Positions 1 to 14,884 of a stretch of 64,000 nucleotides of DNA are shown here, one piece after another. This DNA is from Sebaldella termitidis ATCC 33386 (GTDB taxonomy: Bacteria > Fusobacteriota > Fusobacteriia > Fusobacteriales > Leptotrichiaceae). Position numbers and translations under genes: made by a program. The stretch is from positions 3,255,989 to 3,319,988 of the forward strand of contig NC_013517.1 in assembly GCF_000024405.1 (NCBI RefSeq), given 5' to 3'. Under the pieces are notes generated by a model, which made no database searches, was not told the origin of the DNA, and worked only from the letters and a program-made list of their open reading frames with translations. Numbering within the stretch: position 1 is the stretch's first letter; every line of letters starts with the position of its first letter.

Positions 1-1923
1 GCCGGTTCCAGTGCTGAACATGCAGCCGGAGATATGCTTTATGAAGAGTTCAAAAAGCTCGGGCTTAAAAATGTCAGAAAAGATGAATTTACTGTAGATG
101 CATGGGAATTTAAAAATGCAGAGCTTACGTATACCGATAAAAAAAATAAAAAGCAAAGGCTTACTTTAAACAGTTATGCTGCCAATTTTGCGACAAATGG
201 TACAGAAGTGTATGATCTGGTTTATCTGAACAAGGGTACCAGAGATGATTATGAAAATGCGGATGTCAAGGGAAAGATAGTTATGGTTGATATTAATCAG
301 CGTGAGGACTGGTGGATTAATTATCCTGCCATGCAGGCAAAGCTAAAAGGAGCAAAGGCTGTAATAGCCGTAAATAACGGAGGATATGCAGAAATCAGCG
401 ATGATGCCCTGAATGTACAGGACATGTGCGGTCCTGATGATACACCTGCCTTGGGAATGTCAAAAGCAGACGGTGATAAGCTGAAAGCTCTTATGAATAA
501 AAATAGAACTGTAAAAATAGAACTAAATGTGGATTCTCAGGTTAAAAGAGATCAAAAGGCCTATAATATTGTTGGTGAAATCCCCGGAAAGGATCCTGAT
601 TCACTTATAATATTAAGTTCACATTATGACGGATATTTTGAGGCATTTCAGGATAATGCTACAGCAGTTGCCCTTACTATGGGAATAGCCAAAAGTATAA
701 TTGACAGCGGGTATCAGCCTGAAAAAACAATTATCGTTATTGCACATGCTGCCGAAGAATGGGGAACAGTAGATACAAGATATGACTGGTCTGTAGGTGC
801 GTATAATCAGGTGTTTAAAGTAAGACCGGACTGGGCAGCCAAAAGTTTTGCCATGCTGAATTTTGAACAGCCGGGATCTGAACATGTAAAAACACAGGAA
901 ATAAGAACTGTTTATGAATATAAAACATTCATTGAAAGTATTGCTGACAGAATTAAACCGTCTGTCTCAGGTGTATATGAGGGAGGAATCAAGGTTACCA
1001 CACCTCCGAGAACATGGGCGGATGATTTTTCATATTCTATAGCCGGGATTCCTACTATAAGAAATGATTATGTAGGAGCACAGTTTATGAAATCGACATA
1101 TCATACAAATTATGATACTAAAGCAACTTATAATGAAAAAGCCTTTACTTATAATCACCAGCTTTATGCACAGATTGTTTACGAGCTTGATCAAAAAGCA
1201 GTTATGCCGATGGATTTTACTACACGTTTCAATGAATTCAAAGCTACGCTGGATATGGATTTACTGGCTAAAACCGGAAATGAAGGAAAAAAACTTCTGA
1301 CAGACATTGAAGAAGTAATAAAAACTTCTGAAAATCTGAACAGACTGCTTGCAGATATAAATAATAAGCATGAGCAGGCTATAAAAAGTAATAATACTGC
1401 CGAAATTAAGAAATATGAAACAAAAGCAGATACTGTGAACAAACAGCTCCTTGCTCTTTATAAATATTGTCAGGATTCATTTATAAAGCTTACATGGGAA
1501 GATGATTCCATATTCCCGCATGAACATGCACAAAATAATATAAATGCCCTAAATGAAGCTGTAGCTTTACTTGAAAAGGGAGATATAGATACTGCAGTTA
1601 ATGATCACCTTTCTTTAATTGATAATAACTGGTATGCACTGAGTTTTGACAAAGAAACTTATGAATATTTTACGAATCAGGTTTTAAAACAAGATAAGGA
1701 ACGTCTGAACTGGGGTGCAGGAAGAATTATGGGACATGAGGATCTTTATGATATTATTTTCTCTTTGCAGCAAAAACAAAAATCAGGAGAAAAAAATGTT
1801 AAGAATGAAATAGAAGCTTTGAAAAAGATTCTTGCTTCTCAGGAAGCACTTATGAAAAATACTGTTATTACAGAAAATAAACAGCTTCTTGAAGTAAAAA
1901 AATATCTAAATAAAATAAAGTAA
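1..1923 (+). CDS. M28-family zinc metallopeptidase, 5' end outside the window
   Basis: The reading frame is open from base 1, and the eleven codons before the first ATG (position 34) read like the start of an M28 domain (GSxxxxxAAxxM), so the gene begins upstream and the ATG at 34 is not the start. A PA-type insert is followed by the catalytic core: SSHYDGYFEAFQDNA supplies the His and Asp zinc ligands, and AHAAEEWG the Glu-Glu pair of general base and ligand. M28 enzymes are co-catalytic two-zinc aminopeptidases or carboxypeptidases. The C-terminal 250 residues are a helical, Lys/Glu-rich extension not needed for the fold. Localisation cannot be judged because the N-terminus is missing. A strong hairpin follows the stop. 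Family assignment is firm; substrate is unknown. Confidence 0.85.
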   Translation, partial: AGSSAEHAAGDMLYEEFKKLGLKNVRKDEFTVDAWEFKNAELTYTDKKNKKQRLTLNSYAANFATNGTEVYDLVYLNKGTRDDYENADVKGKIVMVDINQREDWWINYPAMQAKLKGAKAVIAVNNGGYAEISDDALNVQDMCGPDDTPALGMSKADGDKLKALMNKNRTVKIELNVDSQVKRDQKAYNIVGEIPGKDPDSLIILSSHYDGYFEAFQDNATAVALTMGIAKSIIDSGYQPEKTIIVIAHAAEEWGTVDTRYDWSVGAYNQVFKVRPDWAAKSFAMLNFEQPGSEHVKTQEIRTVYEYKTFIESIADRIKPSVSGVYEGGIKVTTPPRTWADDFSYSIAGIPTIRNDYVGAQFMKSTYHTNYDTKATYNEKAFTYNHQLYAQIVYELDQKAVMPMDFTTRFNEFKATLDMDLLAKTGNEGKKLLTDIEEVIKTSENLNRLLADINNKHEQAIKSNNTAEIKKYETKADTVNKQLLALYKYCQDSFIKLTWEDDSIFPHEHAQNNINALNEAVALLEKGDIDTAVNDHLSLIDNNWYALSFDKETYEYFTNQVLKQDKERLNWGAGRIMGHEDLYDIIFSLQQKQKSGEKNVKNEIEALKKILASQEALMKNTVITENKQLLEVKKYLNKIK

Positions 1924-1940
1924 CTTTTATTATAAATGTA

Positions 1941-1978
1941 AAAATGAACACAACTGTATTATCTGTGTTCATTTTTTT
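1941..1978. terminator. Bidirectional rho-independent terminator
   Basis: AATGAACACA pairs with TGTGTTCATT across an 11-nt loop and is followed by a T run; the mirror side is A-rich. It sits between the convergent peptidase and lipid operon and can serve both. Confidence 0.85.
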
Positions 1979-2016
1979 ATTTGCAGTACTGTTGTTTCAC
2001 TCTGATATTAAATCTC

Positions 2017-3309
2017 TTAAAATTCCCTTTTTATATCCCGTTTTTTAGCAAGCCTGTTTTTTTTCTCATAAGCTGAAAAAGTTAAATTTATCCTCTGTAT
2101 ATCTGTATCAAAGCTGCTAAATAAATCATATAAATTCTCTTTTATTTTTTCTTTTATCATATCATAATCCTTGTAATTCCGGGGAATAAATGATACTTCA
2201 ATATCCGTAAATGTTTTTTGAATAATATTATATTCCTGAATATCCCCGCCGCTAAACATCAGTGCCCTTCTTAAAAAGTCCGGAAAAATTTTTATATCTT
2301 TACCATCTCTGGATTTCAAGATAAAAATATCATCCTCTCTGCCTTCTATTTTATCAAGGATCATAAAATCCCCGTCAGATCTCCGGCTTTCTATCCAGAT
2401 ATCATTTAGCCTGTAACGTATTACCGGCTGCGATTTTCTCTCAAAGTCCGTTATTACAGGTATAAATCTGGTTTTTTCATTATTAATATATTCCTTTTCG
2501 ATATATAAAACATCTTCATTTATTTTCAAACCCTGCCCGGAATCATAAGAATATCCTAAAAACCCTTCTGTTGCCTGATAGATCTCTCCTATTTTCTTAT
2601 TAAATTTCCGGTTTATGTATTCCCTGTTTTCCTCTGTAAGTACTTCCGCACAGGAAAATACACGATTTGGCTTTATATCTATATTTTCTATATTATCCGC
2701 CAGTATTTTCAGCATGGAAGCCGGTGCTATTAATATATCCGGTTTGAACCTGTCCAGCTCCTTCAGATTATTTTTATAATCATTTATCATATCAAAAAAA
2801 CGGAATTTCAATACTCTGGAATTAACAGAATTATATAGTTCACTGTCTGCCCTCAAAAAAAGTGCTATTTTCTGTTTTTTTAAAATAAAATCCGGAAGTA
2901 ATTTTGCAAGGATAATTCCGGTCCATTTTGCCCTCTCAAAATCCGATATTATGAATAATCCCCGGTTTCCTGAAGTTCCCGAAGATAAGCCTACTGTTAT
3001 ATTATTATACTTTTCTTTAAAATTTCTGGTTTTCTCAGAATTCATTGCGATTTCCAGAGCATGATTTTTGCTGAGTCCTACTGTATTTACAGTATCAAAA
3101 TTTTCCATCATAATTTTTTTATCAATAACCGGAAAATCTTTCAGCTCTTTTCCTCTGTATTCTGAATAATATCCAGATTTTTTTGTAATATAATCCAAAT
3201 GTTTTTTTATTTTTCTTCTTTGAAACGACAGAAGTTTTTCTTTATTACTGCTCTTCATAAAAAATTTATATTTCAGATAATAATAAAAAATAATAAGCTT
3301 AAAACTCAT
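2017..3309 (-). CDS. Adenylate-forming enzyme, F390/CoF synthetase-related
   Basis: Likely ATP-dependent acyl-adenylate or acyl-CoA/ACP ligase of the ANL superfamily, phenylacetate-CoA ligase/F390-synthetase branch. The P-loop-like A3 motif LSSGTSGNRG is near residues 108-117, the A5 motif YQATE near 244-248, and RYRLND near 298-303. At 430 residues it has the short size of this branch. The start at 3309 has AAGGAG five bases upstream and overlaps the preceding hydrolase gene by 11 nt, indicating translational coupling. It is the last gene of the seven-gene operon. Being next to a KAS III and an extended SDR, it could activate a beta-hydroxy acid as OleC does in the Ole pathway, but that is inference; a plain fatty-acid ligase is equally possible. 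Confidence 0.75.
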   Translation of the reverse strand: MSFKLIIFYYYLKYKFFMKSSNKEKLLSFQRRKIKKHLDYITKKSGYYSEYRGKELKDFPVIDKKIMMENFDTVNTVGLSKNHALEIAMNSEKTRNFKEKYNNITVGLSSGTSGNRGLFIISDFERAKWTGIILAKLLPDFILKKQKIALFLRADSELYNSVNSRVLKFRFFDMINDYKNNLKELDRFKPDILIAPASMLKILADNIENIDIKPNRVFSCAEVLTEENREYINRKFNKKIGEIYQATEGFLGYSYDSGQGLKINEDVLYIEKEYINNEKTRFIPVITDFERKSQPVIRYRLNDIWIESRRSDGDFMILDKIEGREDDIFILKSRDGKDIKIFPDFLRRALMFSGGDIQEYNIIQKTFTDIEVSFIPRNYKDYDMIKEKIKENLYDLFSSFDTDIQRINLTFSAYEKKNRLAKKRDIKREF

Positions 3310-4105
3310 AAGGACTCCTTAAAAACTTTTCATCATGTGTAATTACAGGCTCTATATCTGCATGAGCTGTATTTTCCAGATCATACAAAATTTCCTTTAT
3401 TTTTTTTACGGTACTCTCATACTTTTTTTCATCTGCAAAAGCTATTTTTTTCAGTATTTTTCTCGGCTCTGCCCCGTACAGATTCTCCTTTGACCATACT
3501 GCATCAAAAATCATTAATTTATTCAGACTCTTCAAGTACAGTCCAATCTGCCCTTTGGCATGTCCCTCCAGATAAAAGCCATATATCTCATTTAAGTTTA
3601 ATATATTAAAAAAATCATTTTCAGATATTTTTATTTCTGGAAAGTCTTCCATTTTTATAATTCTTTTTTCCATATCTTTGAAAATAAGTCTCTCAAACAC
3701 CAGATTTCTTATCCTTGACATTTTGCCCGAATATAAAAGCTCCGCTGCTTCCCTGCTGCATATAATCACAGCTTCCGGAAATTTTTTCAGCGAGCCGTAA
3801 TGATCGGGATGAAAGTGGCTGATTATTATATACTGTATCTCATCAGGATTAATATTATTTTCCATCAGAACCTCGTCGGCATCTTTATCACATTTTACCC
3901 TTGTTACAAAAGAATAAAGTCTGGCAGCAATCCCTGCATTCCTAAAAAGACTTACAGAATAACCTGTATCTATAAGTATTTTTATTCCGGAAATTTCCAG
4001 ATAAAAAAATGTTGCCGGAAATTTTATTATTCTGCTTTCGGATTTTTTGTTGATATATTTTTTATCCGCTGTACAATACCCGTTATTAAATGCTGTGAGC
4101 TTCAT
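3299..4105 (-). CDS. Metallo-beta-lactamase-fold hydrolase
   Basis: The signature HFHPDH (HxHxDH) is at about residues 97-102, with later ligands plausibly the His in EGHAKGQ (near 182), Asp in FDAVW (near 202) and His in ITHDE (near 258). This full set predicts a dinuclear zinc hydrolase. The 268-residue size and motif spacing resemble lactonase/thioesterase-type members more than RNases or glyoxalases. It lies 21 bp after the KAS III gene and overlaps the ligase. In context it may release a condensed acyl chain from its thioester or open a lactone (inference). No signal peptide, so probably cytoplasmic. Confidence 0.8.
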   Translation of the reverse strand: MKLTAFNNGYCTADKKYINKKSESRIIKFPATFFYLEISGIKILIDTGYSVSLFRNAGIAARLYSFVTRVKCDKDADEVLMENNINPDEIQYIIISHFHPDHYGSLKKFPEAVIICSREAAELLYSGKMSRIRNLVFERLIFKDMEKRIIKMEDFPEIKISENDFFNILNLNEIYGFYLEGHAKGQIGLYLKSLNKLMIFDAVWSKENLYGAEPRKILKKIAFADEKKYESTVKKIKEILYDLENTAHADIEPVITHDEKFLRSPYEF

Positions 4106-4126
4106 GTTATTTCCCTCCTGTACATA

Positions 4127-5104
4127 TTAATATTCCAAAAGCATCATTCCTATGGACATTCCCGCAGATGTCCCGGCTATGAGAATTTTATCGTTTCTTT
4201 TTATAAGTCCCTTCTCCACACCGTAAGCAAATGTGAAAGGTATGGATGCTGCTATCATATTTCCGTATTCCGCTACTATATTTATCAATTTTCTGTCTTC
4301 TATATTAAGCTGTCTTCCTATTAATTTCAATCCTGTTATACTGGCCTGATGCGCTACCACTCTGTCTATCTCTGACATATTGACATTATTTTCCAATAAA
4401 AATTCCTGAAAAAACTTATCTATTTTCTGTTTTATCAGCTTAAAGGCCTTGCTTCCTTCCATATGAAACAAATAATCGGTCTTATTATTTTCATTATAGT
4501 CCTTTACAGGGTATCTTGTTCCTCCGCCCTGAATATGAGTATAATAAAACCCTTCAGAAAACGTCTGAAACTTTGATACAGGAGAGCTTCCGCCGTTTCC
4601 CGCTATAATTGCCGCTGCTCCGTCTCCGAAGAGCCCCGCACTCTCTATATGCCCGTAATTTATTCCCATTGATGCTACCTCACTTGAAACTATAAGTATA
4701 TTTTTATACTTTCCTGCTTTCAGATACATATCTGCTATTTCCAGTGCCGTAAAAAAGCTCAGACAAGTAGAGCCTACATCAAAACAGGCTGTTTTACTAT
4801 TCTCAAGACCAAGCTGTCTCTGTATCAGCGAAGCAGAACACGGGAGAAGTATTTCCTTCGTGGCATTAGCACCTATTATCAAATCTATATCCTCTTTTTT
4901 TATTCCTGCACTTATCAAAGCTTTTTCAGCTGCATATTTCCCCATTTTTGAGGCAGTTTCCTTATCTCTGAAATCAGCATAGTGCCTTTTTCTTATTCCA
5001 GTTTTTTTCAAAACTGTCCCTCTTTTTACTCCTGCTAAAAAATCAACCTCTTCGGACATCACTATTCTCTCAGGAATATAATATCCCTGCCCTAAGATCC
5101 TCAT
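4127..5104 (-). CDS. 3-oxoacyl-ACP synthase III family condensing enzyme
   Basis: Thiolase-superfamily condensing enzyme of the FabH/OleA type, 325 residues. The catalytic triad is intact: Cys114 (GSTCLS), His252 (AHQAS) and Asn282 (YGNMIAAS). The canonical FabH HQAN reads HQAS here and the Cys context differs from housekeeping FabH, arguing for a specialised enzyme. It sits in mid-operon between an extended SDR and a metallo-hydrolase, without acyl carrier protein or malonyl transferase genes nearby, so it probably draws substrates from primary fatty acid synthesis. Claisen condensation of two acyl thioesters (OleA-like) or chain initiation are the two realistic roles. Confidence 0.85.
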   Translation of the reverse strand: MRILGQGYYIPERIVMSEEVDFLAGVKRGTVLKKTGIRKRHYADFRDKETASKMGKYAAEKALISAGIKKEDIDLIIGANATKEILLPCSASLIQRQLGLENSKTACFDVGSTCLSFFTALEIADMYLKAGKYKNILIVSSEVASMGINYGHIESAGLFGDGAAAIIAGNGGSSPVSKFQTFSEGFYYTHIQGGGTRYPVKDYNENNKTDYLFHMEGSKAFKLIKQKIDKFFQEFLLENNVNMSEIDRVVAHQASITGLKLIGRQLNIEDRKLINIVAEYGNMIAASIPFTFAYGVEKGLIKRNDKILIAGTSAGMSIGMMLLEY

Positions 5105-5114
5105 AGTTCCTCCT

Positions 5115-6116
5115 CTATTTTATATGATCTTTTTCTTTGTAAAATTTTCCGAATCTTTTTATTTCATCTCTAAGACTTATTCTCGGTTTATATCCCAGAA
5201 GCTTTTCAGCCTTTTCAATGTTAAGTGTCTGACTGAATGCCAAAGTACACACTGTATATCTTGTCAGCAGCGGCTCCTTGCTTACCCTGAAAAATTTATA
5301 TATACCTTCCAGTATTGAAGCAATCATGTAAATTCTTCCAAATGAAAGCTTTTTATATCGAAATTCTGTCCCGAGACTTTCCGATACGTATTTCAGAAGT
5401 TTTTTCTGGTTTGTCGGCTCTCCGTTTGTTATATTAAATATTTCTCCGGAAACCCCTTCTTTCTCCATACACAATAATATTGCATATGCAGTATTTTCCA
5501 CGCTTGTCATATCTGCAAGAATATCTTCCTTCCCTTTGAAAACAGGAATTCCTATTTTATTATTTGCTTCGATAATTCTTGGCAGTATACTTGTATCACC
5601 GATTCCTATCAGGCCCTTTGGTCTTATTATAACTACATCCAAACCGTCGCTCTCTGCTTCCAGTACTTTTTTTTCCGCTGCAATCTTTGTTTCTATGTAG
5701 TAATTCAGCTTATTGCCACTGTCAAATTCATTTTCCCTTACATTAAGCCTGTCTTTTTTTCCGGTATAAACACTGGGAGTAGAAACATACACCAGCCTCC
5801 GGGCTTTTTTTGTCCTGCAGTATTTTATAATATTTTCTGTTGCTGTTACATTATTTTTTATAAATTCTTTTTTTGAACCCCATATTGTAGACAACGCAGC
5901 AGAATGTACGACAATATCAGCTTCGGGAAAATCCAGAACTTCCTTCAATTCTGCCAAATCTGCACTTATACACTCTATTTTACTATCGTCTTTTTTTATT
6001 TCCATAAGCTTTTCTTTATTTCTTCCCACAGAAATTATATCATACTTCCCCTTTAATTCTTTCAGAATATAAGAACCAAGAAATCCTGTGGCTCCTGTCA
6101 CCAGAACTTTTTTCAT
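5115..6116 (-). CDS. NAD(P)-dependent epimerase/dehydratase family (extended SDR)
   Basis: Extended short-chain dehydrogenase, 333 residues. The Rossmann motif TGATGFLG is at 7-14 and the active-site YxxxK at Tyr140/Lys144, with the preceding VSTPSVY segment supplying Ser/Thr. Sequence flavour is that of the 3-beta-hydroxysteroid dehydrogenase/OleD group (reduction of a beta-keto group) rather than a sugar-nucleotide epimerase, though the latter cannot be excluded in a locus with two glycosyltransferases. The gene overlaps the upstream glycosyltransferase by 4 nt and is followed 10 bp later by the KAS III gene. Confidence 0.8.
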   Translation of the reverse strand: MKKVLVTGATGFLGSYILKELKGKYDIISVGRNKEKLMEIKKDDSKIECISADLAELKEVLDFPEADIVVHSAALSTIWGSKKEFIKNNVTATENIIKYCRTKKARRLVYVSTPSVYTGKKDRLNVRENEFDSGNKLNYYIETKIAAEKKVLEAESDGLDVVIIRPKGLIGIGDTSILPRIIEANNKIGIPVFKGKEDILADMTSVENTAYAILLCMEKEGVSGEIFNITNGEPTNQKKLLKYVSESLGTEFRYKKLSFGRIYMIASILEGIYKFFRVSKEPLLTRYTVCTLAFSQTLNIEKAEKLLGYKPRISLRDEIKRFGKFYKEKDHIK

Positions 6117-7423
6117 TTTTTTCCGCCTCCATATTCCTGAAACAATCTTTTTATTTCACTGTCCAAAATTTTATACGGCTGATATTTTTTAAAATCTTCC
6201 GATAATTGTTCCAATTTTTTCCATTTTTCTTTATTAAACAATATATTCAGTTTTTGAGTTATATCTTCTGTATCATTAATATTTTCAGCCTTAATTCCTG
6301 TTTCAAAATATTCGATTCTTGCAGCAAAGTCAAACTGATCATAATCCTGAGGAACTACAAGCGAAGGTTTTTTATATTTTATACAGTTATATGTTATTCC
6401 GGCTCCGCCGTGATGTATTACATAATCAAAACTGTCCAAATGCCCGGTATACGGAAGATAGTCAGTTATCACCATATTTTCTTTTATTTTTCCCGCTAAA
6501 ATATCAAACTCCCTGTTTTTCTCTCCCATTGTTACCACAAAAAGCGTATCTTCAAAATTTTCTGCAATTTTCTCTATATTTTCTGTAAGAGTTTTTTTTG
6601 CCCATTTCAGATGCGTTCCAAGAGTTACCAGTATTTTTCTTTTATATTTATATTTTTCTTCCAAAATATCTGATATTTTTTCTTTATTTATTTTTTCCCT
6701 GTAATACAGCGGTGTCTCACAGCATGCCCCGGCAAAATGATACTGTTTCGGCCAGCTCCTTTTAAATTCAAATTCTTTCATACCCAGCCCCAGCATTGAA
6801 TAAGGCGAGTAAATGTTTTCCTCTCCGCAGTTATTATAAAGCCTGAAATTCATTTTCTTTATCTGATTATAAAATAAATAATAAATAGTTTTCTTAAATA
6901 ATCTGATCTGCTTTCTTGCGAAATAATCCCGTATTTTACTGTAAATTGTACTATCAGGACTGAGTCCTCCAAAATAAGCAGGCGTTCCGTCTTTATTTTC
7001 CGGTGCAAAGCTTGTAGGCATAGTTGTAATAAATGGAATCCCCAGCTCTTTTGAACAGAATACCGACGAAACCACAATAAAATCAGCCACAATAATATCT
7101 GTTTTATTCTTTCGCATAAGCTCTTTTAATTCATCAGTAACTTTGGGTATAAGTCTCAGGTTTTCAAAAAATTGCTTTTTCAGCTCAAAAAAATTAGTTT
7201 TTACCTGTTTTTCAGTATTTGAAAGCCTCTCAAAAACCTCATTTTCTTCTGTCAAAATATTTTCTACCTGAAATCCGCTGTTTATTATTATCTCATTTTT
7301 ATCTTTTCCTGTTATAAATCTAATGTCATATTTGTCCTTTAATTTTTCAGCCATTTCAATCAGAGGATTCAAATGTCCCTCAAAAGGCGGAGCTAAAAAG
7401 TCAACCCTTATCCTCTTTTCCAT
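6113..7423 (-). CDS. GT1-family glycosyltransferase (UGT/MGT type)
   Basis: GT-B fold nucleotide-sugar glycosyltransferase of 436 residues. The N-terminus has the acceptor-domain signature PPFEGHLNPLI, and the donor-binding HHGGAG occurs near residues 337-342 followed by PQDYDQ. Members glycosylate small lipophilic aglycones (macrolides, sterols, lipids). I chose the ATG at 7423 with GAGGTG upstream over an in-frame TTG at 7426. Translation overlaps the end of the preceding membrane glycosyltransferase by 23 nt. With that gene it implies two sequential sugar additions to a lipid made by the rest of the operon (inference). Confidence 0.85.
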   Translation of the reverse strand: MEKRIRVDFLAPPFEGHLNPLIEMAEKLKDKYDIRFITGKDKNEIIINSGFQVENILTEENEVFERLSNTEKQVKTNFFELKKQFFENLRLIPKVTDELKELMRKNKTDIIVADFIVVSSVFCSKELGIPFITTMPTSFAPENKDGTPAYFGGLSPDSTIYSKIRDYFARKQIRLFKKTIYYLFYNQIKKMNFRLYNNCGEENIYSPYSMLGLGMKEFEFKRSWPKQYHFAGACCETPLYYREKINKEKISDILEEKYKYKRKILVTLGTHLKWAKKTLTENIEKIAENFEDTLFVVTMGEKNREFDILAGKIKENMVITDYLPYTGHLDSFDYVIHHGGAGITYNCIKYKKPSLVVPQDYDQFDFAARIEYFETGIKAENINDTEDITQKLNILFNKEKWKKLEQLSEDFKKYQPYKILDSEIKRLFQEYGGGKK

Positions 7424-8573
7424 CAAAACTCACCTCAATTATTCCGTCTTTTATCTTCACGGACTTCCCTCTCCAGATAATTTTACTTGGCCTTATCAAA
7501 GCCAGAATCCAGTAAAGTATTTGAACTATTCCGGAAATTATTTCCAAAACCATATCCTTTATTCTGTCATTTTCACAGAAAATTCTTTTTCTCAGTATTT
7601 TCCCTGCAAAAAAATTCAATATGCTTATTCCGATATATATCAAAAATATCTTATAACTGTAAATCAATGAACATATAAAAAATAAACTTCCCGAAATAAA
7701 TGGAATTATTGAGAAAATAAAAATGCCCATATCCAGATTTTCTTTTATATAATGATTTGCAAACACGTGCCAGCGTCTCATAAGCTTTAAAAATGTCCTC
7801 AAATCCTTTATTTCAGTATTTAATTTACACGGAATAACTGACTGATATACTTTTATTCCGTTCTCTGCTGCAATTTTGGCAAATTCATAATCGTCACAGA
7901 GTTTCTGCCTTATTTTTTGATAAAGCTTCAGTGAAATTACTTTTTCAGATTTAAATATATAAAACATCCCGTTTATCGTTCTATTTCCACTGAAAAACGC
8001 AGAAGTAAAATAATTATATACAGAATTGCTGTTTACATATGCTCTTACCATATCTCCCCATATATTTCCCGCTTTTAGATAATAAGGAATTCCTGTTATT
8101 ATACTGGTTTCCAGCAGTTTTTTATCAATATTCTCCAGTTCTTCTGTATTTACAGCAGTATCATCATCAAGAATAACAACATATTTTCTCCATAATTTTT
8201 CAGTCTGTATAATTTTGTATACCTTGGGATTTTCATAAAAAGGCGCCCTGCTGCATTTTATCACGCGAAGATTCTTTTTAGGATTATTTCCTGTAATTTC
8301 ATTTATTATTTTTTCAGCTTCGTTGTCATCTTCATCTACAGCCCATATTAATTCTGCTTCTTTTGCGGTATTATAAATAATGGAAAGTTTTTCTTTCAGA
8401 TAACTGTCTCCTGATAATACCGGCTGAAAAATTGTAACTTCTTTCAGTGATAATCTGTTTTCTTCTTTTATATTTCTCTCTTTTTCTCTTTTATAATAAG
8501 TAAAGGTAAAAATAAACCTCAGCAATAAAATTACTGCATATATCATCAAAAGGATAAAAATAAAATATATCAT
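7401..8573 (-). CDS. Membrane glycosyltransferase, GT2/GT21 (ceramide glucosyltransferase-like)
   Basis: 390 residues: an N-terminal membrane helix (residues 1-25), a GT-A catalytic domain, and two to three hydrophobic helices after residue 285. The processive/GT21 signature is visible: first Asp in AVDEDD (near 80), LDDDT (135-139), DDYE (227-230) and RRW (266-268); the residue normally Gln/Arg in QxxRW is Leu here. GT21 enzymes transfer a hexose to ceramide or similar lipids at the cytoplasmic membrane face. Start has AAGGAG seven bases upstream and overlaps the SDR stop as ATGA. Likely adds the first sugar to a membrane lipid. Confidence 0.8.
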   Translation of the reverse strand: MIYFIFILLMIYAVILLLRFIFTFTYYKREKERNIKEENRLSLKEVTIFQPVLSGDSYLKEKLSIIYNTAKEAELIWAVDEDDNEAEKIINEITGNNPKKNLRVIKCSRAPFYENPKVYKIIQTEKLWRKYVVILDDDTAVNTEELENIDKKLLETSIITGIPYYLKAGNIWGDMVRAYVNSNSVYNYFTSAFFSGNRTINGMFYIFKSEKVISLKLYQKIRQKLCDDYEFAKIAAENGIKVYQSVIPCKLNTEIKDLRTFLKLMRRWHVFANHYIKENLDMGIFIFSIIPFISGSLFFICSLIYSYKIFLIYIGISILNFFAGKILRKRIFCENDRIKDMVLEIISGIVQILYWILALIRPSKIIWRGKSVKIKDGIIEVSFDGKEDKG

Positions 8574-9382
8574 TCTGTCTCCTTCACCATTCCTTCATAC
8601 ATCAGCTTAGCACAAAGCCTTTCCGGTAAAAACCTTACCAGAAATCCGGCCGTTTTATAAAAAGCACCCGGAACCGAACGCTTCCTGCCGCGAAAAAAAT
8701 CCTTTACTGCTGATTTAGCTACATATTCCGGAGACATCATCAAATTTAAAAATCTGAATTTTCTGCAGAAAGCCTTCATTTTCAAAAACTTTGCCTTACC
8801 AGTAAATTCTGTATCTACTGCTCCCGGACATAAAGACATAACATTAACTCTGCTGTTTTTATATTTTTTTCTTATTTCATATCTCATATTGCAGCTGTAT
8901 TGATCCAGAAAATATTTTGACGGTGAATAAAATACAGTCAGCGGATGGGGAAACAATCCTGCAATTGATGAAACATTGATTATTCCTCTTATAGTATCTG
9001 TATCATCTTTTTCCAGCATTTTTTTTATATAATAATTACCAAGAAAACATGGAGCTTCCACATTTAGTCTGATTCCGTCCAGTAATATCCGGTTTTCTGT
9101 TTCATAGCTGTACCCTAATTTTACCATACCTGCGTTATTTACCAAAATATCTATTTCATTATATTTTTTTATTAAAATATCCCAGCTTTCTTCTGATATA
9201 AGATCCGCTGCTTCTATTTCTATTATTTGATTTTTATATTTTTTCTGAAGCTCTTTTTTTGTATTTTCCAAGTCCTGCTTATTTCTTGCTGTAAGAATAA
9301 CATCATACTTCCGGCTTAGGAATTCTTCCGCCATTGCTTTCCCAATCCCTTTTGAACCGCCGGTTATTAAGACTTTTCCCAT
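8570..9382 (-). CDS. Classical short-chain dehydrogenase/reductase
   Basis: First gene of the operon; 270 residues. It has TGGSKGIG near residues 7-14, NNAG, the VSSIAG serine and YSPSK (Tyr/Lys pair). Likely NADPH-dependent ketoreductase acting on an acyl or lipid keto group (3-ketodihydrosphingosine-reductase-like activity is possible beside a ceramide-type glycosyltransferase, but is only inference). A longer frame to 9436 exists, but it would run through the promoter; the ATG at 9382 is preceded by AAAAGGAGA and lies about 18 nt after the predicted transcription start. Confidence 0.85.
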   Translation of the reverse strand: MGKVLITGGSKGIGKAMAEEFLSRKYDVILTARNKQDLENTKKELQKKYKNQIIEIEAADLISEESWDILIKKYNEIDILVNNAGMVKLGYSYETENRILLDGIRLNVEAPCFLGNYYIKKMLEKDDTDTIRGIINVSSIAGLFPHPLTVFYSPSKYFLDQYSCNMRYEIRKKYKNSRVNVMSLCPGAVDTEFTGKAKFLKMKAFCRKFRFLNLMMSPEYVAKSAVKDFFRGRKRSVPGAFYKTAGFLVRFLPERLCAKLMYEGMVKETE

Positions 9383-9406
9383 GATTCTCCTTTTGAATTT
9401 TTTTCC

Positions 9407-9437
9407 ATTATACAACAAATTTTGACATAGTGTCAAA
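9407..9437 (-). promoter_or_regulatory. Operon promoter with a perfect operator dyad over the -35 box
   Basis: On the minus strand TTGACA (9431-9436), an 18-bp spacer and TATAAT (9407-9412). The -35 is one arm of the perfect dyad TTTGACACTATGTCAAA (9421-9437), 7-bp arms around CTA. A dimeric repressor (TetR-type sites look like this) bound there would block polymerase. No regulator gene adjoins it. Confidence 0.8.
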
Positions 9438-9475
9438 CATTTTTTTTATTTATGATATAATATTATCTTAATTAA

Positions 9476-9518
9476 CAAAAACAGGACTGAACAATTTTTT
9501 TTGTTCCAGTCCTGTTTA
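9476..9518 (-). terminator. Terminator after manA
   Basis: AAACAGGACTG...CAGTCCTGTTT long stem with further ACAA/TTGT pairing, followed on the minus strand by a T run. It separates manA from the lipid operon promoter. Confidence 0.8.
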
Positions 9519-9521
9519 CTT

Positions 9522-10466
9522 TTATTTGGAATATGCTGCAAGTATTTCCACTTTTCCATTTATCTCAATCTTTTTTACATTATTAGTCAGAATAAAAAAA
9601 TCTCCTTTTTTTACCCTAACAGTATTTACTGTTCCCTCTCCCGCCATCACAAAGCATGCATAATAAGGAAACTCTTTTTCTATAACTGCTGTTTTAGTAG
9701 TTTTAATATGCTTTACTGTAAAGCATTCCTCATCAACCAGAGTCATTTCCACTGCATTTGCCTTATACGCTGTTTTTGTGTTAATAACAGGATAGATGCT
9801 GGGAACAGCCACGACATCCAAGGATTCCTTCAAATGAAGCTCTCTCTTTTTCCCGTCGGAGGTTTTTCTGTTATAATCATAAAATCTGTATGTTGTATCA
9901 CTGCAGGTAGCAATTTCCACGGCCATTATGTCACGGGTAAGTGCATGAAGGGTTCCCGCCGGCACATGGATAAAATCACCGCTTCTTACGGGAAGGTAGG
10001 AAAGATGCTCCTCCAGTCTGCCCATCTCGACAGCCTCTGCTAATTCTTCCCTGCTTTTGCATGTATGCCCGAAAACTATTTCTGCATTTTCCGGAGCATC
10101 CATAATATACCAGCATTCATCCTTACCATTATCATTTGAATTTTTCATTGCATACTTATCATCAGGATGAACCTGAATGCTAAGATCCTCTTTGGCATCT
10201 ATTATCCTTATCTGCAGGGGAAATTCACCATTTGCCGTTTTATTCCCAAACAAATCAGGCTCACTGTTAATAAGATTATTAATTGACATTCCCTCAAAGG
10301 GAGAAGTCAAAATCTCAGATATCCCGTTTTTATGCCCTGACACACCCCAGATCTCGCCAAGAGGAAACTCAGTATTTGTATAATTGAAGTTATATATTTC
10401 CGGCAGTTTATTTCCTCCCCATATTTTTTCAAAAAATAATGGTTTTAAAAATAATATGTCTTTCAT
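9522..10466 (-). CDS. manA: Mannose-6-phosphate isomerase, class I (short form)
   Basis: Interconverts mannose 6-phosphate and fructose 6-phosphate, feeding glycolysis or GDP-mannose synthesis. The cupin core has the expected zinc ligands: Gln98 and His100 (IQVHPDD), Glu117 (DECWY) and His174 (PAGTLHA). At 314 residues it is the short Firmicutes-like type. It is a single gene 197 bp downstream of the GntR gene and ends at a strong terminator, so it may be transcribed from its own promoter in that gap. Confidence 0.92.
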   Translation of the reverse strand: MKDILFLKPLFFEKIWGGNKLPEIYNFNYTNTEFPLGEIWGVSGHKNGISEILTSPFEGMSINNLINSEPDLFGNKTANGEFPLQIRIIDAKEDLSIQVHPDDKYAMKNSNDNGKDECWYIMDAPENAEIVFGHTCKSREELAEAVEMGRLEEHLSYLPVRSGDFIHVPAGTLHALTRDIMAVEIATCSDTTYRFYDYNRKTSDGKKRELHLKESLDVVAVPSIYPVINTKTAYKANAVEMTLVDEECFTVKHIKTTKTAVIEKEFPYYACFVMAGEGTVNTVRVKKGDFFILTNNVKKIEINGKVEILAAYSK

Positions 10467-10662
10467 TTTTTCCTTTCATGTAAACCGGTCTTTATTATAT
10501 ATACAGTTAAAAGTCCGATTATAATGCCTTATATTTTGGGATCTGTATTATGAAAGGTACTGCCTGTAAAGAATTTTTCACAATATTTAAGCTTTTGCAT
10601 ACTAAAAATATGAATTCTTATCCCGGATAAACTCCGGCTTCTACTATATTATCAAGGATAAT

Positions 10663-11376
10663 CTACTCTTTTATATTTATCATCTTAAACTCTGCTTTAT
10701 CACTTCTATGTCTTGATATTGAATATTCAAAAGCCTGTCCGTTGCTCAGAAAGGCAACCTGCTCCACTTCCAAAACAGGAAGATACCTGTCTATCTTAAG
10801 ATATTTCTGTTCCTTTTCCGTGGGAACATCTGCTCTTATTGTTCTGTGCGAGCTTTGAATTTTTAGCTTCAGAACATTTTCTATATAATCATAAACAGAG
10901 GACTCCAGATTTTTTTTCTGTAATCCGGGAATCAGTGTTATCGGCATAAACGTTTTTTCCATAACATAGGGAATATTATCAGAATAACGTATTCTCTCAA
11001 CATGATAAATAAATTCATCTGTTCCTATTTTTAGTTTATTTGCTATTTTCTCATCGGGATTAACAATCTTAAATTTGATAATTTTAGATTTTACCTTATG
11101 ATCCGAATGTGTGGTGCTGAATCCTAAAAATTGCTTTTTCATGGCTATTTCTATGGCTTCATCATCATTTATATCCTTTACAAAAGTCCCTGATCCGCGT
11201 CTTTTTACTATCAGCCCCTCTGCTACCAGAAGATCTACGGCTTTTCTTATAGTAATTCTGCTGACATCATAATCTATACTCATTTCCCTCTCAAAGGGAA
11301 GCTGTTCATTAACTTTATATATTCCGTTTACAATTTTATCCCTTAAGTCCTGGGCTATTTCTTTATATTTCAACAT
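10663..11376 (-). CDS. GntR-family (HutC subfamily) transcriptional regulator
   Basis: 237 residues. The N-terminal winged helix-turn-helix (LPFEREMSIDYDVSRITIRKA, VKRRGSGTFV) is followed by a UTRA ligand-binding domain of about 150 residues. HutC-type regulators typically sense phosphorylated sugars. The start was set at the ATG at 11376, which has GGAGG seven to eight bases upstream; a longer frame to 11406 has no ribosome binding site. It is the last gene after EIIC, GH1 and SGNH hydrolase, so it is probably the local repressor of that beta-glucoside unit (inference). Confidence 0.9.
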   Translation of the reverse strand: MLKYKEIAQDLRDKIVNGIYKVNEQLPFEREMSIDYDVSRITIRKAVDLLVAEGLIVKRRGSGTFVKDINDDEAIEIAMKKQFLGFSTTHSDHKVKSKIIKFKIVNPDEKIANKLKIGTDEFIYHVERIRYSDNIPYVMEKTFMPITLIPGLQKKNLESSVYDYIENVLKLKIQSSHRTIRADVPTEKEQKYLKIDRYLPVLEVEQVAFLSNGQAFEYSISRHRSDKAEFKMINIKE

Positions 11377-11477
11377 TGAAAATCCTCCGAGTTTTATAAT
11401 AAACATTATATATCATTTTTATGCCAAAAACAATTTTATAAGAATATTTGTTGATTTTTCAATGTTTCATATTTTCC

Positions 11478-12161
11478 CTATCCGGAAATTTTCCGATAAT
11501 AATCCAGAATCACGGGTTTTATAATATTTGTAAATTTTTCATAACCTTTTTCCGATAAGTGAATTCCGTCCAAACTGTATTCTTTGCTTAATCTGTTATT
11601 TTCATCAAGCATTTCGGAAAATACATCTATATAAACTATATTACTGAAATTCACAAGCATTTTCTGTGTTTCTTCGTAAATCTTACGGATAAGCTCATTA
11701 CTGCGTATTCCCTGTTTTGCTTCAAATTCTTCCTGTCTGTATTCCATATTCTGCTCCGGATTCCACGGAAGAGTCGAAATTAATGCAAAATTTACATTTT
11801 TTATGTTTATATCCAGCATCTCAATGAGATTTTTTATATTACAGGCTGTCTGCTTCGGACTCAGCATACATGTTTCTCCTGAATCATTAATTCCTATCAT
11901 AAGTATAACAAGATCAGGCTGATATTTTATTACAGCTTCATCACAGAACCAAAGAAGACTTTCCGATGTAAAGCCGCTTATTCCGGAATTATATTTTGTC
12001 TCTATCTCCGGGAAGTATTTTTCTATATTATAGTTCTCTGTTATTGAATCTCCGTAAAAAACCAGCCCGCCTTTATTGGCTCGAAGATTTTTTTCTATTA
12101 TTTTCCCCATTGTTTCTACCTGATAATCTCGAAACTGAAAATATCCGGAATTATACTTCAT
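11478..12161 (-). CDS. SGNH/GDSL-type hydrolase
   Basis: 227 residues with block I YGDSIT (catalytic Ser), block III IGINDSG, and the C-terminal DGIHLSEKG containing the Asp-His pair. This is a lipase/esterase-fold hydrolase, often a carbohydrate O-deacetylase. No signal peptide, so it acts in the cytoplasm. It sits between the GH1 gene (31 bp upstream) and the GntR regulator; removal of acetyl groups from imported acetylated beta-glycosides is the most economical role (inference). Confidence 0.85.
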   Translation of the reverse strand: MKYNSGYFQFRDYQVETMGKIIEKNLRANKGGLVFYGDSITENYNIEKYFPEIETKYNSGISGFTSESLLWFCDEAVIKYQPDLVILMIGINDSGETCMLSPKQTACNIKNLIEMLDINIKNVNFALISTLPWNPEQNMEYRQEEFEAKQGIRSNELIRKIYEETQKMLVNFSNIVYIDVFSEMLDENNRLSKEYSLDGIHLSEKGYEKFTNIIKPVILDYYRKISG

Positions 12162-12191
12162 ACTACACTCTCCTGCCTTTATTCTCTATGT

Positions 12192-13574
12192 CTAATCATC
12201 AAACCCGTTGTTTTTAGAAAGCTCATTAAACCACAATCCTGATTTTTTCAGCTGTCTGTTGCCTGATTCTATACTAAATTCTATTAAACCGTAACGATTT
12301 TTATATTCATTTATCATAGACCAGTTATCTATGGGAGTCCACATATGATAGCCAAAACAGCTCGAACCTTCCTGAATTGCCTTATGCACATAACTTAGAT
12401 GTTCTTTAAAAAACTGAATTCTGTAATCATCCTCTATAACTCCGTTTTTATTTCTAAATTTATGCTCATCCTGAACACCCATACCATTTTCAGCAATAAA
12501 ACATCTAAAATTGTTATATTCATTCTTCATTGTCATCAGCATGTCATAAATAGCTTTGGGATATATTTCCCAGCCTCTTGAAGTATTCATTTTTTTCCCC
12601 TGCATATCATAATAATCAAAAAATGATTCGGGAAGGAGTACTGAATCAGGATTTACAATATGCTCCTTTGCTTTTACCCTTCTTGGCTGGTAATAATTCA
12701 GTCCCAGAAAATCTATAATATTATTTTTTACAATTTCTTTATCCTGAGGCTGTGTTTCAGGCATTAGCCCGTTATCCTTCAGAAATTCTTTCAATTCTTC
12801 ATTAAATTCCCCTTTTACAAAAGGATCAAGAAACGATCTTACAAAAATCAGGTCAGCAATTTTCGCTGCTTTCATATCTTTCTCATTGCTGCTTCTCGGA
12901 TAAATAGGAGTAATATTCAAAACAGTAAAAATTTCTCCGCCCAGATTCAGCTTTCTGTATTCCGCTACAGCCTTTGAATGTGCAATAATCATGTTATATG
13001 CTACCTGTACTGCCCTTTTAAAATCAACAACATTCGGATAATGAAAATCATACAGATAACCGCCTTCTGGAGTAACAATAGGCTCATTAAACGTACACCA
13101 TTTTTTTATTCTTTTTCCAAAAAGCTGAAAACAAGTTCTGGCATATTCGACATACGCCTCTACCACATCTCTGCTTTCAAATCCCCCTTCATTTTGAAGC
13201 TCTATAGGAAGATCAAAATGATGCAGATTCATAAAAAGCTCTATACCGTTTTTTTCAAATTCATCTATTACTCTGTTGTAATATTCCACGGCTTCACGAT
13301 CCGCTTCTCCTCTTCCTCCCGGGATTAATCTTGCCCAGCTTATTGAAAATCTCAGGGAATTCAGACCTGCTTTTTTTAACAGTGCTATATCCTCTGCATA
13401 GTTTTCATAAAAATTTGATAATTTTCCGGGTCCCATACCATTGTAAAATCTGGTAGGAGCCTCTTCGAAAAACTTATCCATTGTTGTTTTTCCCCTGCTT
13501 GTGTCGGAACCTTCAGTCTGTAATGCAGAAGAAGCTCCGCCCCAGTAAAAGTTTTCCGGAAATAAATATTTCAT
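12192..13574 (-). CDS. Glycoside hydrolase family 1, probable 6-phospho-beta-glucosidase
   Basis: 460 residues, the full length of GH1. The acid/base Glu164 is in TFNEP and the nucleophile in FIAENG; the N-terminal FYWGGASSALQTEG is the GH1 signature. Lying 20 bp behind a PTS EIIC of the cellobiose type, it most likely hydrolyses 6-phospho-beta-glucosides (cellobiose-6-P and similar) delivered by the PTS. Free beta-glucosidase activity cannot be excluded from sequence alone. Confidence 0.9.
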   Translation of the reverse strand: MKYLFPENFYWGGASSALQTEGSDTSRGKTTMDKFFEEAPTRFYNGMGPGKLSNFYENYAEDIALLKKAGLNSLRFSISWARLIPGGRGEADREAVEYYNRVIDEFEKNGIELFMNLHHFDLPIELQNEGGFESRDVVEAYVEYARTCFQLFGKRIKKWCTFNEPIVTPEGGYLYDFHYPNVVDFKRAVQVAYNMIIAHSKAVAEYRKLNLGGEIFTVLNITPIYPRSSNEKDMKAAKIADLIFVRSFLDPFVKGEFNEELKEFLKDNGLMPETQPQDKEIVKNNIIDFLGLNYYQPRRVKAKEHIVNPDSVLLPESFFDYYDMQGKKMNTSRGWEIYPKAIYDMLMTMKNEYNNFRCFIAENGMGVQDEHKFRNKNGVIEDDYRIQFFKEHLSYVHKAIQEGSSCFGYHMWTPIDNWSMINEYKNRYGLIEFSIESGNRQLKKSGLWFNELSKNNGFDD

Positions 13575-13594
13575 TTTTCCTCCTTATTTGGCTT

Positions 13595-14884
13595 TTATGT
13601 ATTTTGTTCTTTTGTCTTAAATTCTTTCTGTGAATAAAGAATAAACGGAATCCACAGCAGTACAACTGCAATAAAACATATCACCTGTACTACACCGCCC
13701 ATAATTGAATTGGTAGCTAGAGTTCCGCTTATTCCCAGCGGCATTGTCCACGGTACGGCAACTCCTGTTGTTTTCGGCATTATTCCTGTTACTGTGGCAA
13801 AATATGCAATTGCCGCAGTAAGCGGTCCGCCTAACATCCACGGAATAGCCATAATCGGATTCAATATTACCGGAAGTCCGAATAAAGTCGGCTCTGCAAT
13901 ATTGAAAATACCGGGGATAAATCCCAGCTTTGCTACTTCACGCTGCTGTTTTATCTTACTTACCAGAAATATAGCAGTCAGTGCTGACAGTGCCCCCATC
14001 GATCCTACACTCACAGTAAACATTTCCACGAACTGTTTAGTTACAATGTGCGGCAGCGGAAGATTATTATTGTAAGCATTTAAATTTTCCAGAGATGCCA
14101 CATTCCACACTGTATCCATGATCGGATTTACTACAAGATGTCCGTGTATCCCAAAAAACCAGAAGAACTGTACTAAAAATACCGCAATCATAGTTGCTGC
14201 AAATGAAGTTCCCAAACCTATTAACGGTTTTTGCAAAAATTCATATACGAAACTATGTATTGAATGAAATGAAGTTCTTTCAAAGATCAGGCTTATTATC
14301 ATAAATGTAGTAAGCGTAATTGCACCCGGAATAATGGCTGAGAAAGATTTTGCAATCGCCGGCGGAACTTCTTTGGGCATTTTTATAATTATATTTTTGT
14401 TAATCATAAAACTATAAATAGTAGTAGACAGAATTGAAATAATTATAGCCACAAACAGTCCCTGTGCACCTACCAGCGAAGTAGGAATAACACCTGAAAT
14501 AATATTCTCCCCTTCAAGTGTCAGTGAAAACGGTGTAACTATAAAAAATGAAGTAAGCGCCACTGCTGCTGAATATAAAGCCTCGGATGGTTTTTCAGGA
14601 TTTTTGTATTTATACAGATAATATCCTATTCCCAGACTTATAAAAATAGACATTAACAACATGGAACTCTCAACGGAATGTCCGAACAGTTTCCATAGAA
14701 CATCCTTCTTTTCAGCGGAGATCAATGGAAAATTGCTGATTACCAGTAGTATAGAACCGAACATTGTAAGAGGGAACGAAAGCATAAATGCATCTCTCAG
14801 ACTTAACAAATAAATATTTTTTCCAATTTTTTCAGCAAATACCAGTAATATTTCTGAAAAAGCTTTTTTAGAACCAGAGCTCAT
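13595..14884 (-). CDS. PTS EIIC, lactose/cellobiose family (CelB-like)
   Basis: Polytopic permease of 429 residues with about ten hydrophobic segments, including the conserved FFGIHGH and the PGIFNIAEP loop typical of the Lac-family EIIC. It translocates and phosphorylates beta-glucosides together with EIIB and EIIA partners, neither of which is encoded here, so it must borrow them from another locus. It is first in its operon, has AGGAGG before the ATG, and is preceded by a good promoter. Confidence 0.9.
   Translation of the reverse strand: MSSGSKKAFSEILLVFAEKIGKNIYLLSLRDAFMLSFPLTMFGSILLVISNFPLISAEKKDVLWKLFGHSVESSMLLMSIFISLGIGYYLYKYKNPEKPSEALYSAAVALTSFFIVTPFSLTLEGENIISGVIPTSLVGAQGLFVAIIISILSTTIYSFMINKNIIIKMPKEVPPAIAKSFSAIIPGAITLTTFMIISLIFERTSFHSIHSFVYEFLQKPLIGLGTSFAATMIAVFLVQFFWFFGIHGHLVVNPIMDTVWNVASLENLNAYNNNLPLPHIVTKQFVEMFTVSVGSMGALSALTAIFLVSKIKQQREVAKLGFIPGIFNIAEPTLFGLPVILNPIMAIPWMLGGPLTAAIAYFATVTGIMPKTTGVAVPWTMPLGISGTLATNSIMGGVVQVICFIAVVLLWIPFILYSQKEFKTKEQNT

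Follow-up and report, generated by a model that had tools for sequence, protein, structure and literature searches.

A seven-gene operon of Sebaldella termitidis with a four-enzyme core shared across bacterial phyla

The ketosynthase MxnB, which has been reconstituted, joins two beta-ketoacyl chains (PMC5724707). In the OleABCD, lipstatin and nocardiolactone clusters a condensing enzyme works with an OleD-like reductase and with an adenylate-forming enzyme. The Pseudomonas pqs operon combines a 3-ketoacyl-acyl carrier protein (ACP) synthase III (KAS III), a coenzyme A (CoA) ligase and a metallo-beta-lactamase-fold thioesterase. The operon described here consists of seven minus-strand open reading frames (ORFs) between 2017 and 9436 of a 64,000-nucleotide stretch of Sebaldella termitidis ATCC 33386 (NC_013517.1, positions 3,255,989 to 3,319,988; the window), in a genome of 4,486,650 bp in three contigs, and it shares features with each of these systems. 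Its KAS III belongs with the chain-joining enzymes MxnB and CorB, not with FabH or OleA. Four of its genes, encoding the KAS III, an OleD-like short-chain dehydrogenase/reductase (SDR), a metallo-hydrolase and an adenylate-forming enzyme, form a core that is inherited and clustered as a unit. The last of these is a member of TIGR02304 ('F390 synthetase-related protein'), a family named by similarity alone, and the same core recurs in the neighborhoods of other members. The seven genes are as follows.

2017..3309, minus strand: F390-synthetase-related adenylate-forming enzyme (TIGR02304), 430 aa, by NCBIfam score
3299..4105, minus strand: metallo-beta-lactamase-fold hydrolase, N-acyl-homoserine lactone (AHL)-lactonase-like, 268 aa, PF00753
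4127..5104, minus strand: KAS III of the MxnB/CorB-like clade, 325 aa, by tree and alignment
5115..6116, minus strand: extended SDR, OleD-like (2-alkyl-3-oxoalkanoate reductase nearest), 333 aa, by NCBIfam
6113..7423, minus strand: GT1 glycosyltransferase resembling macrolide glycosyltransferases (MGT), from its ATG start; the ORF reaches a TTG at 7426
7401..8573, minus strand: GT21 membrane glycosyltransferase, HpnI/ceramide-glucosyltransferase-like, 390 aa, PF13506
8570..9382, minus strand: classical SDR, 270 aa, PF00106, its start moved from TTG 9436 to ATG 9382

The core was followed across 50 loci picked through the F390-like protein, the phylum of some of the sampled genomes being inferred. 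All four genes are present at 44 of these loci, in at least five gene orders, and the phyla represented are Fusobacteriota, Bacillota, Pseudomonadota, Bacteroidota, Bdellovibrionota and a sixth group (around genome G109) that by gene content is probably Cyanobacteriota. Hosts include Paenibacillus, Pontibacillus, Escherichia coli, Burkholderia, Paracoccus, Rhizobium, Ketogulonicigenium, Paraburkholderia, Roseateles and Pseudomonas. The exceptions to a complete core are one Pseudomonas megaplasmid and five probably cyanobacterial loci. On the Pseudomonas megaplasmid pMPPla107 the KAS and F390-like genes lie ~18.6 kb apart; on pBASL58, also a Pseudomonas megaplasmid, the core is spread over ~10 kb with unrelated genes interspersed (megaplasmid loci L041 and L116). 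Over 45 loci the pairwise distances of the four core proteins co-vary, with Spearman coefficients of 0.56-0.68 that were equalled in 0 of 500 permutations. The tailoring genes, on the other hand, are variable: ATP-grasp-type genes occur at 16 loci and GNAT-type genes at 9 (groups formed by BLAST linkage and named after example annotations), a sulfotransferase gene adjoins the core in Paracoccus and Ketogulonicigenium, and the pair GT21 and GT1 accompanies it in the window operon and at L126. The E. coli relative, located between narI and the tyrosine-tRNA/purU region (L043:9146-16027; L205), comprises seven genes in which the core is joined by PAP2, a fatty-acid hydroxylase and an acyl-CoA desaturase. 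This form is present in 674 of 5,426 complete genomes (12%, about one in eight), and no description of it was found in the literature searched. Likewise, a full-text search, with subscription journals outside its reach, found no paper on the core, its enzyme combination or the function of TIGR02304.

Several lines of evidence establish the kinship of the KAS III. In an IQ-TREE phylogeny of 62 KAS III proteins, with outgroups from a scan of genome contigs with the KAS protein (mostly FabH-type matches) and with PpyS and PqsD outside the set, a branch with 97/96 support places the cluster KAS and MxnB/CorB together on one side; OleA and the FabH references, the genome's own FabH among them, fall elsewhere. 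The best matches among solved structures are MxnB (4v2p, 184 bits) and CorB (4yuc, 172 bits), with lower scores for FabH (147), PqsD (87) and OleA (75). Among NCBIfam models, PRK07204 gives 346 bits, FabH models give 217 bits and, against a cut-off of 292.1, 213.7 bits, and PRK09258, which we take to be the OleA-type model and which matches best of that type, gives 111 bits against a cut-off of 285. Alignment shows the predicted triad Cys114, His252 and Asn282 to be intact. The enzyme shares with MxnB/CorB the KAS III fold, this Cys-His-Asn triad, an (S/T)C(L/T)SF-type active-site motif, the lack of an OleA-type Glu and a place in one supported clade. The relation by sequence is nonetheless distant, the gene neighbors of MxnB/CorB are entirely unlike those found here, and their chains come from type I polyketide synthases, of which this operon has none. 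A Priestia megaterium plasmid (L117) encodes a KAS of the MxnB-like branch whose neighbors are an ACP and an MMPL transporter; the other core genes are missing there.

The residue at the position of OleA Glu117 and PpyS Glu105 is particularly informative. It is Leu or Ile in all cluster KAS, Val in MxnB/CorB and Glu in both OleA references. This Glu has been assigned the role of base, its E105A replacement inactivates PpyS, and the activity of MxnB without it was explained by a substrate carbon that is already acidic (PMC4578411). Because the KAS III here has no Glu with which to deprotonate an ordinary fatty acyl chain, it most likely takes an activated condensation partner, in contrast to OleA, whose partner is a plain fatty acyl chain. 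A separate FabH gene elsewhere in the genome groups with the FabH references, and this together with the tree rules out a housekeeping FabH identity; the low PRK09258 score, the missing base and the separate clade likewise rule out OleA. The phylogenetic comparison with housekeeping FabH that the earlier note had proposed thus sets the KAS III apart, and the block is conserved elsewhere.

The remaining core enzymes further define the relationship to the Ole pathway. The adenylating enzyme scores 453.6 bits against TIGR02304, above the curated cut-off of 251.9, and carries a P-loop (SSGTSG, 109-114), A5 (YQATEG, 244-249), A7 (Asp303), A8 (Arg324) and a candidate A10 Lys422, with key motif positions kept in at least 94% of 52 sequences. 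Its closest solved structures are the phenylacetate-CoA ligases of the PaaK type (30 bits), and it has no Pfam match at E 0.01, so the PF00501 signature of OleC is absent and an OleC identity is ruled out. The hydrolase matches PF00753 (45.8 bits), with the AiiA lactonases as its closest structures. Its metal ligands H97, H99, D101, H102, H182, D201 and H257, invariant in 47 sequences, follow the dizinc pattern of HxHxDH plus a third His, a bridging Asp and a last His, and it scores ~50 bits against AHL-lactonase equivalogs whose cut-offs are 375-475. The extended SDR reaches 195 and 177 bits with two OleD models, both under the cut-off of 580, and its Ser112, Tyr140 and Lys144 are invariant in 45 sequences; among curated families OleD is thus its closest relative by score, though the protein is not a member. 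Because catalytic residues are kept across 45 to 52 sequences, the core enzymes are not relics. The earlier note had placed the condensing enzyme, the extended SDR and the adenylate-forming enzyme in the classes of OleA, OleD and OleC. Only the likeness to OleD survives these comparisons, and the label 'Ole-like', which fails for two of the three enzymes, is a loose one. That note also saw that OleB is missing, and indeed none of the seven genes encodes an OleB-type alpha/beta-hydrolase beta-lactone decarboxylase; its suggestion that the metallo-hydrolase is a local stand-in does not hold, as this enzyme is a fixed part of a widespread core. A fixed metallo-hydrolase and glycosyltransferases also distinguish the operon from the Ole, lipstatin and nocardiolactone clusters.

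Within Fusobacteriota the tailoring genes track the core. Among 98 genomes, TIGR02304 is found above cut-off in 14; a GT21 homologue occurs in 11, all of them among these 14 (Fisher p 3e-12), and a GT1 homologue in 12, of which 11 are among the 14 (Fisher p 4e-11), p values that overstate the evidence because related species are not independent. All seven families occur together, in changed order, in G047 and in Leptotrichia-like genomes. The reshuffling of gene order among genomes argues for repeated selection for clustering, and the recurrence of the seven families in other genera, with the co-occurrence statistics, shows that the block did not arise by chance. The genome-wide check of co-occurrence suggested earlier thus came out in favor of a linked set. 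Fusobacterium-type relatives have GT21 without GT1, and in fusobacterium G046 (L057:4260-7133) the core flanks a 957-aa protein resembling non-ribosomal peptide synthetases (NRPS), with AMP-binding and carrier domains, in place of the glycosyltransferases. Most Leptotrichia-like clusters and two genomes of another genus contain an extra ~210-aa gene without a Pfam family. In the Leptotrichia- and Fusobacterium-like clusters and at L126 it has GT21 on one side and GT1 or the extended SDR on the other (L046:11133-11759; homologues at L045, L047-L050, L052, L053 and L126); it is absent from the window operon. At L045 (G071) GT21 has in-frame stops and this extra gene is truncated, which suggests a decaying copy of the cluster.

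Both glycosyltransferases predicted for the operon are borne out. GT21 scores 134.5 bits with PF13506, and its DDD (136-138) and RW (267-268) motifs are invariant in 13 sequences. The GT21 domain and these motifs are shared with HpnI and ceramide glucosyltransferase; the score with the HpnI model, however, is 56 bits against a cut-off of 310, and the operon has no hopanoid or sphingolipid genes. GT1 has an HHGGAG motif and scores 38.2 bits with PF06722 and 66.7 bits with TIGR01426 (cut-off 260). The classical SDR matches PF00106 (116 bits), its nearest curated model is a mycolate reductase (117 bits, under the cut-off of 380), and its Tyr and Lys are invariant in 12 sequences.

The seven genes are one transcription unit. 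From the 2017 side onward the junctions are -11, +21, +10, -4, -23 and -4 bp, the GT1/GT21 junction becoming -26 if GT1 starts at the TTG rather than at the ATG at 7423. Much of what had been read from the sequence earlier is confirmed by this layout and by the profile scores: a tightly packed minus-strand block with junctions of -23 to +21 bp, the family assignments of all seven proteins by NCBIfam and Pfam, and the lack of an ACP gene, for which there is no room because no gap exceeds 21 bp. The start of the classical SDR had been put at TTG 9436. It is corrected here to ATG 9382, which is preceded by an AAGGAG Shine-Dalgarno sequence and whose Met is invariant in 12 homologues, so that 9383-9436 is promoter and leader, not coding sequence. 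Two features lie there.

9407..9436, minus strand: promoter TTGACA-18-TATAAT, 12/12 sigma-70 consensus positions
9421..9437, no strand assigned: 17-bp palindrome TTTGACA-CTA-TGTCAAA, probable operator, overlapping the -35 box

The promoter is the only 12/12 consensus site in the scanned region 1850-10600. The palindrome TTTGACACTATGTCAAA, which contains the -35 box, occurs once in the whole 4.49-Mb genome, and in the congener G089 TTTGACACAGTGTCAAA is found at the equivalent place, ahead of the same first gene of its operon, the gene upstream of that operon differing from the one in the window. The palindrome was not found in the clusters examined outside the genus. It has the appearance of an operator dedicated to these genes. 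Runs of T preceded by inverted repeats can be seen by eye at ~1943-1978 and ~9485-9517. Beyond the operon, at 10663-14884 of the window, translations inspected by eye include beta-glucosidase-like, PTS-EIIC-like and GDSL-esterase-like ORFs and a GntR-type regulator, in what looks like an ordinary beta-glucoside uptake operon.

On balance we consider it probable that the seven genes form a regulated operon dedicated to the synthesis of an acyl metabolite that carries sugar, probably a glycolipid, and that the conserved four-enzyme core is the basis of this pathway. The families and residues present suggest a possible sequence of reactions. KAS III would take an acyl group made by fatty-acid synthesis onto Cys114 and condense it with an activated beta-ketoacyl or malonyl thioester to give a beta-keto acyl thioester, whose new keto group the extended SDR would reduce in the manner of OleD. 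The dizinc hydrolase would then free the acid from the thioester, a step that OleA performs itself, or open a lactone. The F390/PaaK-like enzyme may adenylate the free acid for transfer to CoA or to an acceptor, which in relatives could come from the extra ATP-grasp/GNAT or NRPS proteins. A further reduction by the classical SDR could follow, and the first sugar would be added at the membrane by GT21 and the second by GT1. The earlier note had proposed a lipid carrying two sugars. The conserved core and the glycosyltransferases that track it uphold a dedicated pathway to a glycosylated acyl product; GT21 here and the hydroxylase and desaturase genes of relatives make a lipid likely, and the count of two sugars is presumptive.

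Several observations weigh against this proposal. No assay of any core member was found, nor a product, and the operon encodes no transporter or flippase. Tailoring by NRPS, sulfotransferase and ATP-grasp proteins is as compatible with a small secondary metabolite as with a lipid, and the PaaK kinship of the F390-like enzyme would also fit an aromatic acid substrate. In five probable cyanobacterial genomes the neighborhood of the adenylating enzyme lacks the complete core, and the order of the steps is only one that we infer.

The aromatic possibility leads to an alternative that we regard as unlikely, an aryl-primed pathway resembling that of the Pseudomonas quinolone signal (PQS). Here the PaaK-like enzyme would make an aryl-CoA or aryl-AMP, KAS III would extend it and the metallo-hydrolase would act as a PqsE-like thioesterase, giving a glycosylated signal or antibiotic instead of a membrane lipid. 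The pqs operon, which likewise groups a ligase with KAS III enzymes and a hydrolase of the metallo-beta-lactamase fold, counts for it, as do the sequence matches of the adenylating enzyme among solved structures, all of them phenylacetate-CoA ligases, the detectable match of the KAS III to PqsD, a GT1 that resembles macrolide glycosyltransferases, and the NRPS or sulfotransferase genes that adjoin the core elsewhere. However, PqsD/PqsC-type KAS score far under MxnB/CorB and the KAS here is not PqsD/PqsBC-like, the ligase is of the PaaK/F390 type, and a ketoreductase and glycosyltransferases are added. GT21 is moreover a lipid-acceptor family, and the E. coli and Burkholderia relatives have lipid-type tailoring genes such as the fatty-acid hydroxylase. 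An Ole-type condensation of two acyl-CoAs by the KAS III appears more doubtful still. It would account for the kinship of the extended SDR to OleD, a thioester hydrolase would provide the hydrolysis done by OleA, and MxnB likewise joins two chains (PMC5724707); yet the Glu whose loss kills PpyS (E105A; PMC4578411) is missing from every cluster KAS, in the tree these enzymes stand apart from OleA, PF00501 does not match the adenylating enzyme and OleB is absent. The idea that the KAS III serves as an additional FabH to widen the range of membrane fatty acids, with loosely associated neighbors, is very improbable. Its KAS III fold and a score of 217 bits with a FabH model speak for it, but a separate FabH in the genome groups with the FabH references, and the core is conserved as a unit across phyla.

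Returning to the glycosylated acyl product, a broader reading that we put forward tentatively is that the core is an undescribed, phylum-crossing module whose acyl products, with two chains or a beta-hydroxy group, would form a new class. An MxnB-type ketosynthase would work on fatty-acid-synthase chains together with the OleD-like reductase, the metallo-hydrolase and the F390-type enzyme, and the product would be decorated with sugars, amino acids, sulfate or desaturations that differ by bacterium. The fusobacterial form may then be a diglycosylated lipid or signal, and about one in eight E. coli with complete genomes may make another form. Four catalytically intact enzymes in fusobacteria, oral and gut relatives, Proteobacteria, Bacillota and E. 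coli would offer a tractable route to such a metabolite class. Laboratory strains allow the E. coli form to be expressed or deleted, and the regulated promoter of the fusobacterial operon may help to show when the pathway is active. The TIGR02304 family and the large MxnB-like branch of KAS III enzymes would each gain a first function.

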